Assembly: GCA_013416795.1 (NCBI GenBank)
Contig: RQSC01001001.1
Span: forward strand, 2,501 to 43,553
DNA: 41,053 nt
Source of the DNA: Prasinococcaceae sp. CCMP 1430
Lineage: Eukaryota > Prasinodermophyta > Palmophyllophyceae > Prasinococcales > Prasinococcaceae
Direction of reading: 5' to 3'
In this document: piece by piece, positions 1,401 to 12,979 of the stretch
Position numbering within the stretch: position 1 is the first letter of the stretch
How the letters are laid out: every line of letters starts with the position of its first letter
The notes under the pieces: model-generated
Database searches by the model: none
What the model was told of the DNA's origin: nothing
Seen by the model: the letters and a program-made list of their open reading frames with translations, nothing else
Made by a program: the position numbers and the translations under genes

Positions 1401-3518
1401 CTACGGGGTGCTGCCACCGTTGCCGTTGTTGGAAACGACGAGCGACGCAAGCGCAACGACGTCCTCGGTGGTGATCGAGCCGTCACCGGTCATGTCACCG
1501 GCAGACGTGATGCATGGCGACTCCACGATGCCGCTGATGACCGCGTTCTGCAGCACCGTGAGGTCGGCGACGTTCACGTTGCCGTCGTTGTTGACGTCGC
1601 CGGAGCCGTCTGCCGCGCACGCGTCCGCCTGGACCGCGGAGCAAATCTCGTCCGCCTGAGGACAGCAGTCGCCGACGATCGCGCACACGACGGCGTCGCA
1701 GCCGCAGCCGTTGGAGGTGTACGCGCCGCAGTCGGCAGCCTCGCACGCGGGCGGGTCGGCGGGGCACTCATTGACATCCGCCAGCGCCGGCGAGGTCTTG
1801 TACATGTCGCAGCTGGCAGGGTCGGTGGCGGTGTTGCACGAGCCGTCGCCGTCCCTCTCGGTGGCCGCGTCCCCGACCTTGTACATCGAGGTGGAGCCCG
1901 TGATGGCGTTGGCGACGATGAGCATGTCGGCGCAGATGGGCGAGACGGCGGCCGGCACGAAGACCATGCTCTCGGGACCCACGTCCAGCGAGTTCAACGT
2001 GAAGTTGTTCGCCTCGACCTGATCGGCGATGTTCGTGTCGCCGAAGTTCCGGCGGTTGATGAAGTCGTTGAAGACGGGCGCCGTCGGGTCGGTCATGTCG
2101 TACGTCATGATGCCGCTCACGCGCTCGAGGGCAATGAAGACGACGGTCTTGCCGCTGGAGAGCTTGCCGACGGTCGCGGCTTCGGGCTCGGGCCCCTTGT
2201 CGTCGGAGCGGTCGTCGAAGTTGTTCTCGTCGTCGTTGGAGTTGAAGAACTCCGAGTTCACCGAGGCGGTCTTCTCCTCGAAGGCCGACCCGCTGTCGTA
2301 CACGAGCTCGAGGCCGTCGGGGTTGGCCTGGAAGACGGAGAAGGAGCGGCTGCCGAACGCGGTGATGGTGGAGCACTCCAGGTTGCCGCTGTCGTCGAAC
2401 TCCGCAGGGTACGCGTTGGTCACTGCGAGGCGGCCGAGCTTCGCGTTGTCGCGGATCAGCGCGTCCGTCGGGCAGTTGGTGGTCAGATCGCCCAGCCTCA
2501 CCTCCTCGCTGAAATCGTCCTCGTCGCGCGAGCTTCCCTCGTTGGCCGTGATGATGTAGTCCACGCCGTTGAGCGAGAGGAACGCCACGCCGTCGGGCTG
2601 GTTCATGAGCGTCACGTTGACGCCGTCCCAGCTCCCAGCGATGTTGATGCCGCCGTCCTCGTCGGACGGGTCCATGACAGCGGTCGGGTACGCGAGCCCG
2701 TCGACGTAGGTGAAGGTGCGCGACGCCATGTCGAAGGCAGCGCCGGCGTTGTTGTCCTGCAGGACGATGTAGAGGGTCTGGCCGTCGTCGGAGAACGCGC
2801 TGCCCTCAGGCTCGAGGTCCGCGGACGGGTTGTTGGCGTTGGGTCCGAAGAGGCGCACGCCCCGGGCGAGGAGCTCCTCCGTGGTGAATCCGTCGAAGGT
2901 GTAGGTCTCGGCGGCGATCACGTTCACCGAGGCCACTGGCTCGGTGGTGATCTCCACGTCGACGATGGTCACGCCGCCCACGGGATCCTCGTTGTTCGGG
3001 TTGAAGTCGAAGGAACCTTCGTTGACGCACGCCACCGCGGTCTTGTTGCCGTTGATGCTGATGGCCTCCGGATGCGAGCCGGCGTCGGCCGAGGCGAGGA
3101 GGAGGCCCGTGATGGGGTCGATGAACGCGAGCTTGCCATCAGCCTGGACCGGGTCGGCCCGGACGGCGGCGACGATGACGCCATCGGCGGCGACGACGCC
3201 CTGCACGCTCTCGCCGGTGAAGCCGGGATCGGCCGCCTGAACGAGCGAGATGACGTCGATGGACCGGACCTTTTGCGGGTTGGTGGGATCGACGAGCGTG
3301 ATCACGTCCACGAGCCCGCTGTTCGCGTTCGTCACGTACGCGTTGCGCGTCGCGGTGTCGTACGCGACCTGCTCGGCGGCATCCTCGTCGTACACGCCGC
3401 TCTCGTAGGTGCCGATCCACTGCAGCTGCGTGAATTGCGCGGCGGCGACGCTGGCCGCCGCCGCGAGCGCCGCCGCGACGAGCATCGACGCGCTCGCCGC
3501 GCGCGAGCGCGCCGCCAT
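1401..3518 (-). CDS. Secreted MSP130-like (choice-of-anchor I) protein with dockerin-like C-terminus
   Basis: A 705-residue intronless secreted protein. I start it at the ATG at 3518 because it gives a clean signal peptide (basic MAARSR, then LVAAALAAAASVAAAQ). An in-frame ATG at 3545 is the alternative; the open frame reaches further up but looks non-coding. The mature protein opens with WIGTYESGVYDEDAAEQVAY, typical of the choice-of-anchor I beta-propeller domain of bacteria, which is homologous to the sea urchin biomineralisation glycoprotein MSP130. Acidic Asp/Asn-rich loops run through it. Then comes a Cys-rich segment (about residues 575-635), and from residue 640 two dockerin type I-like calcium repeats, DVNNDGNVNVADL and DMTGDGSITTEDV. 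It probably acts at the cell surface or extracellular matrix. The domain is mostly bacterial, so ancient transfer is plausible. No catalytic function is claimed. Confidence 0.85.
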   Translation of the reverse strand: MAARSRAASASMLVAAALAAAASVAAAQFTQLQWIGTYESGVYDEDAAEQVAYDTATRNAYVTNANSGLVDVITLVDPTNPQKVRSIDVISLVQAADPGFTGESVQGVVAADGVIVAAVRADPVQADGKLAFIDPITGLLLASADAGSHPEAISINGNKTAVACVNEGSFDFNPNNEDPVGGVTIVDVEITTEPVASVNVIAAETYTFDGFTTEELLARGVRLFGPNANNPSADLEPEGSAFSDDGQTLYIVLQDNNAGAAFDMASRTFTYVDGLAYPTAVMDPSDEDGGINIAGSWDGVNVTLMNQPDGVAFLSLNGVDYIITANEGSSRDEDDFSEEVRLGDLTTNCPTDALIRDNAKLGRLAVTNAYPAEFDDSGNLECSTITAFGSRSFSVFQANPDGLELVYDSGSAFEEKTASVNSEFFNSNDDENNFDDRSDDKGPEPEAATVGKLSSGKTVVFIALERVSGIMTYDMTDPTAPVFNDFINRRNFGDTNIADQVEANNFTLNSLDVGPESMVFVPAAVSPICADMLIVANAITGSTSMYKVGDAATERDGDGSCNTATDPASCDMYKTSPALADVNECPADPPACEAADCGAYTSNGCGCDAVVCAIVGDCCPQADEICSAVQADACAADGSGDVNNDGNVNVADLTVLQNAVISGIVESPCITSAGDMTGDGSITTEDVVALASLVVSNNGNGGSTP

Positions 3519-9931: not shown

Positions 9932-11284
9932 GCGTCGGGCTCGGGGCGGGCGGCGGAGGGCGCGGGGGCCACGACGAGCCAAACGCTCACGAGCCTCAAG
10001 ACCGGCACGCACGTCTACACCATCAAGGGCTACTCGCTGCTCGTCAACCGAGGCGTCGGCGAGGCCGTCTCGAGCGAGCAGTTCGAGGCGGGCGGCCACA
10101 GCTGGACGGTGCACTTCTATCCAGGTGAGTGCAACGCGCTGGCGCTCCTGGGCTGCGCGCCGCGAGAGCGCAGGGGCTGCCACGCGCCTCGCGGCGGCCG
10201 CTGCGTGGCCTCTGACGCGTGCGCGCGACGCTGCGCGTGGATCCTGGCGCAACCGCGCGCGCCGCATCCCGAACGCACTTCGCCTGCGCGCCTCACGCAA
10301 TTTGTCCTCCTTCGCGCGCTCCCGCGCGCAGGTGGATACAACGACGAAGGGAGCAATGCGGAGTACGTGGCGCTCTCGCTCACGCTGGCGTCGGAGGCGA
10401 CCAACCTGTGGGCGCTGTACACGTTCACGATGGTCGACCAAAGCGGCAAGGGCGAGGACAAGTCCATGGGACGCTCCGTCGCGCGCGGTCCGTGCAAGTT
10501 CGAGAGCATCAATTTCCGGCGCGGCAAGCCAAGGTTCATCAAGCGCGCTGAGCTCCAGAGCAGTGGCCTGCTGATGAACGACACTGTGGTGGTGCGCTGC
10601 GAGGTCAGCGTGGTCGTCACCGAGACGACGGTGCCTTCCGAGGGCCCGTACATCCACGTGCCGCCCGCGCGCGTCGGGGAGGATCTTGCCAAGCTCATGC
10701 ATGACGAGAGCAGCTGCGACGTGACGTTCATAGTGGGCGAGGAGCGCGAGCGCATCAGGGCACACAAGCTCATCCTCGGAGCGCGCTCGGACGTGTTTTT
10801 GACGATGTTCAACTCGCCCATGCGGCAAGGGCAGGAGGAAGGCATGGAGGTCGTGCAGGACACGCAACCCGAAGTCTTCAGAGCGCTGCTCCATTTTGTC
10901 TACACGGGTGAGCTGCGCGCGCGCGACGACACACCGGAGATGAGCCAGCACCTTTTGCGCGCGGCGGATTTCTTCAGACTCGACAGGCTGCGCCTGATGT
11001 GCGAGAGGCGGCTCTGCGAGAAGGTCGACGCCTCCAACGTGTCGACTACTCTCGTGCTGGCGGACATGCACAACGCCCAGCAGCTCAAGCAAGTGTGCCT
11101 CGACTACGCCGCGGCCAACCTGCAGGGGGTGATGTCATCGGACGGTTTCGGGACCCTCATGCAATACGACAGGTCGCTGCACCTTGAGGTGCTCGAGGCA
11201 GCCGCTAATCTCATTGAGAGCGACAGGAAGCACCTGGACGAGGATGGCAACGCGCGCGGCGCCAAGCGACGGCGCACGCGATGA
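9932..11284 (+). CDS. MATH-BTB (SPOP/BPM-like) Cullin-3 adaptor
   Basis: Exons (9932)-10124 and 10332-11284, with a GT-AG intron of 207 bases in phase 1. The first exon encodes the start of a MATH (TRAF-like) domain: GTHVYTIKGYSLLVNRGVGE, GGHSWTVHFYPG. Exon 2 continues it (NAEYVALSLTLAS, KSMGRSVARGPCKF) and then gives a BTB/POZ domain: LAKLMHDESSCDVTFIVG, IRAHKLILGARSDVFLTMF, VFRALLHFVYTGEL. A BACK-like helical region and a basic tail, GAKRRRTR, follow. Such proteins recruit substrates to Cullin-3 ubiquitin ligases, often in the nucleus; the tail could be a nuclear signal. The N-terminus is unresolved: upstream in frame is TGA 9929-9931 and no ATG, so a first exon lies further upstream. Confidence 0.85.
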   Translation, partial: ASGSGRAAEGAGATTSQTLTSLKTGTHVYTIKGYSLLVNRGVGEAVSSEQFEAGGHSWTVHFYPGECNALALLGCAPRERRGCHAPRGGRCVASDACARRCAWILAQPRAPHPERTSPARLTQFVLLRALPRAGGYNDEGSNAEYVALSLTLASEATNLWALYTFTMVDQSGKGEDKSMGRSVARGPCKFESINFRRGKPRFIKRAELQSSGLLMNDTVVVRCEVSVVVTETTVPSEGPYIHVPPARVGEDLAKLMHDESSCDVTFIVGEERERIRAHKLILGARSDVFLTMFNSPMRQGQEEGMEVVQDTQPEVFRALLHFVYTGELRARDDTPEMSQHLLRAADFFRLDRLRLMCERRLCEKVDASNVSTTLVLADMHNAQQLKQVCLDYAAANLQGVMSSDGFGTLMQYDRSLHLEVLEAAANLIESDRKHLDEDGNARGAKRRRTR

Positions 11285-11924: not shown

Positions 11925-11988
11925 GCATGCGCTCTTTCGAGCAGCGGCCCCCATGTGTGGGTTTCGGCTACTGCTGTCATGTGCGTGC
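11925..11988 (-). promoter_or_regulatory. Candidate type II SECIS element
   Basis: In the 3' region of the selenoprotein transcript, about 140 bases past its TAG stop. Read on the minus strand: AUGA (11980-11977), then a 5' strand CAGCAGUAGCC, unpaired AAA, a mini-stem CCCA/UGGG capped by CACA, a 3' strand GGCCGCUGCU, then CGAA (11939-11936). The AUGA and CGAA supply the tandem G-A pairs of the SECIS quartet. Helix II has nine Watson-Crick or G-U pairs with one A-C mismatch. There are 12 bases from AUGA to the apical AAA, as in known SECIS elements. A lower helix GCACGCAC/GCGCAUGC (two mismatches) flanks it. The base opposite the quartet end is C rather than the usual G or U. Confidence 0.8.
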
Positions 11989-12119: not shown

Positions 12120-12979
12120 CTAGAGCAGCGCAGCGGCGGCGGTTGCAGCGAGCGCGCCGACCGCGGACGCGCGCACGCGAACGAGCATGCGCCCGGCGCC
12201 GCTGCTGGCTCCATCCGTGTCATCACTGCCATCATCGCCTTCGGCGCGCGCGGGCGCGTCCGATGAAGGTGGGGTCGCATCATCCTGTGCCGGCGGAGGG
12301 GGACTGGCGCTGCCAACACCAGCCAGTGCGGCCTCGATTGCCTGCACCGGCGCGTGCGCGCATGTGTGAGTACGCACGCGCGCGTGCAGGTCTGCCAACA
12401 CACGCTGGCGCTTGCGAGGGTCCGTGCGAGCGAACTCACCTCGTCGAGCAGGCCCGGCGTCGTTTCAGACCTGAATTTCGTGACGATTTCCTCGACCTCA
12501 CCGGCAGGTGTAATCACGACGAAGCGTGGGCGGCTCGATGTGAACCACGTCGAGCCCAGGTTCTCGGTGTCGCGGAGCGTGGCGATGGCGGTGTTGGCCC
12601 CGCCAGAGTATGTGGGCCATGCGTCGCAATCGCTGCTGCTCGTTGTCCAGAGGAGCGTCGCAAAGCGCACGCGGTCGCCGTACTTGGTTTTGGCGTCGCT
12701 GGCATACTCGTCGAAAAGTGGCGCTGCGGCCCTGCACGAACCTCAGTTTACGAAGCTCTTGTCAAGCACGAGCACGTTGCCGTCGCCGAGCAGGCTCTCA
12801 ATGGATGCCTCATCAGCGCCGCCCGCGGCTGCGGCGCCGTCGCACACGGAGAAGCTGCGAACGAGCACGTCCTGCGTGAGCGCGTCGCCGGCGCCGAACG
12901 GTGCCTGCGCGCGCGCGGCCGGCGCGAGCGCGAGCGCCAGGGTGGCGGCGAGCGCACTCGCCACGGTGCGGCGCCTCAT
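12120..12979 (-). CDS. Thioredoxin-fold selenoprotein (UGSC motif), anchored and secreted
   Basis: Exons 12979-12440 and 12341-12120; the intron 12439-12342 is GT-AG, phase 0. The protein has 253 residues if TGA 12745-12743 (codon 79) is read as selenocysteine. The frame is the same before and after this TGA. The motif is DKSFVN-U-GSC-RAAAPLF: U79 and C82 occupy the CxxC site of a thioredoxin, preceded by a beta strand (NVLVLDKSF) and followed by a helix, KYGDRVRFATLLW and RPRFVVITPAGEVEEIV with the cis-Pro. ATG 12979 starts a signal peptide (MRRRTVASALAATLALALAP). Exon 2 is an acidic Ser/Pro linker ending in a hydrophobic stretch (VGALAATAAAALL), which suggests a GPI or membrane anchor. Extra cysteines are C46 and the one in SSSDCDAW. 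Likely role: oxidoreductase of the secretory pathway or cell surface. A standard gene finder would stop it at residue 78. Confidence 0.85.

Follow-up and report, generated by a model that had tools for sequence, protein, structure and literature searches.

A canonical type II SECIS element downstream of a predicted PDI/thioredoxin-like gene with an in-frame UGA in Prasinococcaceae sp. CCMP 1430

Gene structure at the locus

We analysed a stretch of 41,053 nucleotides from contig RQSC01001001.1 of Prasinococcaceae sp. CCMP 1430, hereafter the window, and all positions given below without another locus name are counted along its full length. A MATH-BTB (BPM/SPOP-like) gene on the plus strand and a gene of two exons on the minus strand, which holds an in-frame UGA, are convergent, and a SECIS hairpin sits between their 3' ends. 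The features are as follows, with the basis of each assignment in brackets:

9932-11284, plus strand: MATH-BTB gene
12440..12979, minus strand: exon 1, residues 1-180, which holds the UGA (open frame through the UGA, homology with two paralogues either side of it)
12743..12745, minus strand: in-frame UGA, codon 79, in FVN-U-GSC (alignment with the UGA of paralogue C51, the Cys of paralogue C81 and PDI CGHC)
12342..12439, minus strand: GT-AG intron of 98 nt, 3' of the UGA (prediction and spliced protein P0001)
12120..12341, minus strand: exon 2, a linker rich in proline and acidic residues, then a hydrophobic C-terminus (gene model, P0001)
12122-12120, minus strand: stop codon UAG
11925..11988, minus strand: type II SECIS, helix I to helix I (fold, Rfam alignment, descriptor)
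11977..11980, minus strand: SECIS core AUGA (sequence/structure)
11962..11964, minus strand: apical bulge, unpaired AAA (sequence/structure)
11950..11961, minus strand: mini-stem CCCA/UGGG with CACA loop, which makes the element type II (RNAfold, sequence)
11961-11958 and 11953-11950, minus strand: the mini-stem arms, CCCA and UGGG
11939-11936, minus strand: CGAA of the return strand, with the core GA at 11937..11938

The minus-strand gene model comprises 253 residues, with selenocysteine (Sec) at position 79. The coding frame is open from the UGA to the end of exon 1, and the other two frames contain one and two stops over this stretch. The database protein P0001, from a contig of 1007 bases, is spliced exactly at the predicted intron, and P0002 is unspliced; because the intron is missing from it, P0001 probably derives from RNA. 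Judged by eye, the protein starts with a signal-peptide-like segment, and its C-terminus resembles a hydrophobic anchor signal.

Architecture of the SECIS element

The initial annotation had described a minus-strand hairpin composed of AUGA, an apical AAA, a CCCA/UGGG mini-stem and CGAA on the return strand, about 140 bases after the stop and on the correct strand for the gene. All of these parts were found as claimed, with 139 nt between the UAG and the AUGA, and the spacing from AUGA to AAA is 12 nt, the value given there. Helix I is formed by GCACGC with GCG..UGC, and leads into a 7x7 internal loop (ACAUGAC / CGAAAGA) inside which the quartet lies. Helix II (AGCAGU-A-GCC / GGC-C-GCUGCU) contains one U.G pair and one A.C mismatch; the single mismatch mentioned in the initial annotation could be located at 11969/11946. 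On the 5' side of the apex GAAA is unpaired, followed by the mini-stem CCCA-CACA-UGGG. Folding with RNAfold without constraint recovered helix I, the 7x7 loop, helix II and the mini-stem, with the minimum free energy and centroid structures agreeing in shape. The quartet bases are 36 nt apart, as in the elements that follow three GPx genes of the same genome (C3, C68 and C75), with which the present element aligns without gaps over 45 nt.

According to the rules of SECISearch, as given in the available portion of PMC2375036, a SECIS has an NTGA, an AA at 10-13 nt and a GA 15-39 nt past the AA, and energies below -12.6 kcal/mol for the whole structure and below -3.7 kcal/mol for the upper stem-loop. 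Here the distances are 12 nt to the AA and 24 nt from the AA to the GA, and the energies are -29.4 and -16.8 kcal/mol, respectively, all within these limits. Like eukaryotic type II SECIS elements as represented by RF00031 and SECISearch, the hairpin combines an AUGA/GA core, 12-nt spacing, AAA bulge, mini-stem and helix I, and occupies the same place, past the stop on the coding strand. It is a canonical type II SECIS, for which the mechanism is textbook and the example new.

One element of the earlier description did not stand. The C opposite the end of the quartet had been regarded as a small deviation, but NTGA, AA and GA alone are required in the portion of PMC2375036 cited above, and five of the six other elements that we located in the genome (see below) also have a C after NUGA, facing C in four cases and U in one. 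In the sixth, of contig C82, the base after NUGA is a U that faces a U. We also considered that the SECIS may be functional yet weak or regulated, with most of the product stopping at the UGA. The A.C mismatch and the U.G pair in helix II could be taken in favour of such an element, but helix II is likewise interrupted by a bulge or mismatch in all six other elements, and the strength of a SECIS is not readable from sequence; we consider this reading unlikely.

Chance expectation and covariance score

To count similar structures we used a descriptor, which was devised after the candidate had been seen, so that the count in the window is post hoc; its unchanged use at other loci is not. On both strands of the window the descriptor has two matches, the SECIS at -16.8 kcal/mol and a weaker one with GUGA. 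Sixty dinucleotide shuffles of the window gave a mean of 0.58 matches, with 11 in all 60 at -16.8 kcal/mol or better, and a further 20 stretches from this genome gave two matches in 259,526 non-N strand bases. In the 500 nt that follow a given stop, about 0.004 matches are expected on the right strand. The features seldom occur together, either in shuffles or elsewhere in the genome. The stability of the hairpin alone is modest: the folding energy of the 91-nt SECIS stretch has a z-score of -1.48, with 16 of 200 shuffles equally stable, and the stability of the upper stem-loop was reached by 15 of 1000 shuffles. The second match in the window, at 3109-3164 on the plus strand, is a weak SECIS-like structure with a long loop.

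An Rfam scan of the whole window returned no family that reached its gathering score. The full SECIS_1 model (RF00031) aligned at 11926-11987 on the minus strand with 16.7 bits (E = 2.6), compared with a gathering score of 35. The covariance score is low, an outcome that the initial annotation had named as evidence to the contrary; yet the elements after two GPx genes get just 20.6 (C3) and 18.7 (C68) bits, and relative to RF00031 the hairpin shows no structural difference. Genome-wide, three SECIS_1 matches were listed at E <= 10, with 20.6, 18.7 and 18.6 bits, and each holds a descriptor match, after GPx C3, GPx C68 and a DsbA-like gene. The elements of C51, C75 and C89 are absent from this list, and a separate search of loci L005, L021 and L025 listed no SECIS. 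A score of 16.7 bits therefore does not set the present one apart from the other elements of the genome. Four of 14 prokaryote control genomes also had a SECIS_1 match at E <= 10, comparable to the best of this genome but none above the cut-off, so that a score of such size carries little weight alone.

These results bear on the alternative that the hairpin is a chance fold in GC-rich DNA between convergent genes, and that the adjoining gene is either terminated by the UGA or a pseudogene. GC-rich DNA does fold readily, as the upper-stem shuffles illustrate, and the Rfam score is below threshold. However, the expected number of descriptor matches past the stop is close to zero, homology and the open frame run on beyond the UGA, where both other frames are interrupted, the splice 3' of the UGA is in use, and a paralogue has a UGA at the same codon together with an element of its own. 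We therefore regard a chance hairpin as very improbable.

Elements after other UGA genes of the genome

At 15 further loci, which represent 11 distinct places (four pairs overlap), both strands were scanned with the unchanged descriptor. Six distinct elements were found, all of them 3' of a UGA gene and on its coding strand, and nothing besides. They follow GPx genes C3, C68, C75 and C89, paralogue C51 and the DsbA-like gene of C82. Similar elements at UGA genes of the same genome support both the SECIS reading and the link to the upstream UGA gene, as had been proposed in the initial annotation, and offer local examples for a SECIS model of the lineage.

Eight UGA genes were found without use of SECIS information: six GPx genes, a SelT-like gene and paralogue C51. 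Matches to PF00255 identified GPx on seven contigs, with a UGA at the catalytic position in six (C3, C68, C75, C76, C89 and C135); the gene on C11 (L018) is Cys-type and had no descriptor match in the flank examined. PF10262 matched one gene, read as SelT-like, with the UGA in CQSU. Five of the eight UGA genes found by protein alone have an element within the examined flank. For C76, C135 and the SelT-like gene none was detected in the examined flanks, also with a looser descriptor; the stretch examined for C135 (L022) includes 340 masked bases. Selenoprotein genes for which no SECIS is predicted, mostly from Mamiellophyceae, appear in the available part of a study of Archaeplastida (PMC6627142). 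The DsbA-like gene (minus strand, 2504-1511 of L003, G000:C82:810484-813550) has a UGA in CTQU, matches DSBA with 51.1 bits (cut-off 25.6) and carries a SECIS-like element 160 nt past its stop. It was selected through its own SECIS_1 match and is therefore no independent success, so that five of eight is the fair count.

Paralogues and protein family

The closest relative in the genome search, paralogue C51 (E = 4.3e-13), shares 43 of 129 residues with the selenoprotein, and the UGA of one gene aligns with the UGA of the other. Gene and element lie at 1600-2497 of L005 (G000:C51:154478-157849); the active site reads SFDT-U-GHC, the tail is lysine-rich and cysteine-bearing, and the element, at 2445-2497, lies 194 nt past the stop. 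Loss of the hairpin in relatives that keep the UGA, which the initial annotation had named as evidence to the contrary, was not seen in the one relative examined, this paralogue with its own element. Paralogue C81 (L006, G000:C81:93789-97160; E = 1.1e-4) has Cys at the Sec site (YVGCNPG) and lacks the second Cys. Its open frame is large, at 1013 codons, and in it weak NHL-like repeats (17.6 bits, cut-off 20) come after the domain. Two more matches of the genome search (E = 0.1 and 0.5) were dismissed as chance.

The family is otherwise known from five environmental proteins, and a scan of viral and prokaryotic contigs found no member. Among the five, P0003 is related to C81 and, like it, carries Cys at the Sec site, where paralogue C51 has UGA. 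P0004 and P0005, which are related to C51, both start past the point at which C51 has its UGA, which is how a gene caller would truncate them. Gene callers truncate the UGA frame in this family, as P0001, P0002, P0004 and P0005 all start past the UGA or its position, and reinterpretation of the UGA-interrupted frame as a selenoprotein gene is useful for annotation.

A profile of the three members from the genome matched PDI chains over the whole chain (E = 4.5e-8), with E = 0.0046 for the best single stretch in the three PDI alignments shown, and Sec aligned on the first Cys of the PDI CGHC motif. For Pfam PF00085 the selenoprotein scored 14.0 bits and paralogue C51 22.3 bits (cut-off 23.5). 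A bacterial UGSC family exists; as to a sequence match with it beyond the four-letter motif, an NCBIfam scan returned three thioredoxin models only. A UGSC family is listed in the accessible text of PMC7539508. Judged from these alignments, the domain is PDI/thioredoxin-like. We can propose with some hesitation that the gene may belong to an undescribed, lineage-restricted family, in which a secreted, possibly GPI-anchored U-G-S-C oxidoreductase would stand beside a Sec paralogue (lysine-rich tail, UGHC) and a large Cys paralogue with NHL-like repeats.

Decoding of the UGA

The observations comprise the sequence and structure model of the hairpin, the rarity of its features, the spliced gene model, the UGA and Cys paralogues, the similar UGA genes and a match to SecS. 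We consider it highly probable that the locus carries a canonical type II SECIS in the 3' UTR of a nuclear gene, and that this gene, from a GC-rich microbial eukaryote that is probably a picoalga, encodes a small PDI/thioredoxin-like selenoprotein, which is probably secreted or anchored at the surface. The UGA is very probably read as selenocysteine. In the eukaryotic pathway SBP2 binds the AUGA/GA kink-turn and eEFSec delivers Sec-tRNA. At the present locus the mRNA would extend to the hairpin, SBP2 would bind the kink-turn of the SECIS, and eEFSec would bring Sec-tRNA, upon which the UGA at 12745-12743 would be decoded as Sec. In the resulting U-G-S-C active site, the selenol would stand where a CxxC thiol-disulfide oxidoreductase has its first Cys; both this enzyme activity and the cell location of the protein are predictions.

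SecS was matched over nearly the whole model with 377 bits, and the two stops within the matching stretch were taken for introns. No tRNA-Sec match in the genome was above the cut-off, and the best eight of 11 matches are Leu, Ser, His and Gly tRNAs according to ARAGORN; a typed tRNA-Sec pattern search of the genome found none either. SelD had no match in the genome, in which 70,237 of 200,000 sampled bases are N, and the eEFSec domain model found nothing in the genome or in the control genomes. Because a third of the sampled bases are masked, and the eEFSec model is silent in the control genomes too, the negative results for tRNA-Sec, SelD and eEFSec are weak. A table for Ostreococcus in the part of PMC2375036 available likewise lists no Sec-containing SPS2. 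Dense tRNA clusters are present on contigs C41, C98 and C136, partly identical in C41 and C98, and these contigs may be organellar or foreign.

The UGA could in principle be read by another route, either stop read-through or UGA reassignment, the hairpin being unrelated. That we infer the decoding of the UGA, and that tRNA-Sec was not found in the genome searches, would leave room for such a route. However, in two paralogues the UGA falls precisely where the redox Cys would be, a third has Cys there, and UGA is found at redox sites of GPx, SelT-like and DsbA-like genes as well. Wholesale reassignment is also at odds with the convergent MATH-BTB frame, whose own stop appears to be a UGA (11282-11284). 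We regard another route as extremely improbable, and decoding as Sec remains our preferred reading.

Relation to known selenoproteins

EhSEP2 of Emiliania huxleyi is described in the excerpt available of PMC6254913 as a 75Se-labelled, PDI-like selenoprotein with one thioredoxin domain and a UGHC motif. Likened by this domain description, it resembles the present protein in its single PDI/thioredoxin-like domain with Sec first in the active site. Its UGHC recurs in paralogue C51, whereas the present protein has UGSC and a hydrophobic C-terminal tail. In Ostreococcus tauri, three PDI homologues with Sec are mentioned in the consulted portion of PMC2375036.

The available sections of a survey of 137 algae report 42 selenoprotein families, including PDI_a-e (PMC7539508). 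Described systems that are near in kind to the present selenoprotein include these five PDI families, TlpA and further Trx-like families of algal selenoproteomes. PDI_a-d, compared by description only, share with it a Trx-like domain and one Sec at a redox site; the GUGUU motif given for PDI_e in the same sections is not seen in our protein. For Prasinoderma, a high number of selenoproteins, not named individually, is reported in the accessible part of PMC7455551, besides which our literature search on selenoproteins of Prasinoderma and Prasinodermophyta found nothing. With its paralogue C51, the gene extends the set of selenoproteins of this genome, which is rich in them, by two paralogous Sec redox proteins.
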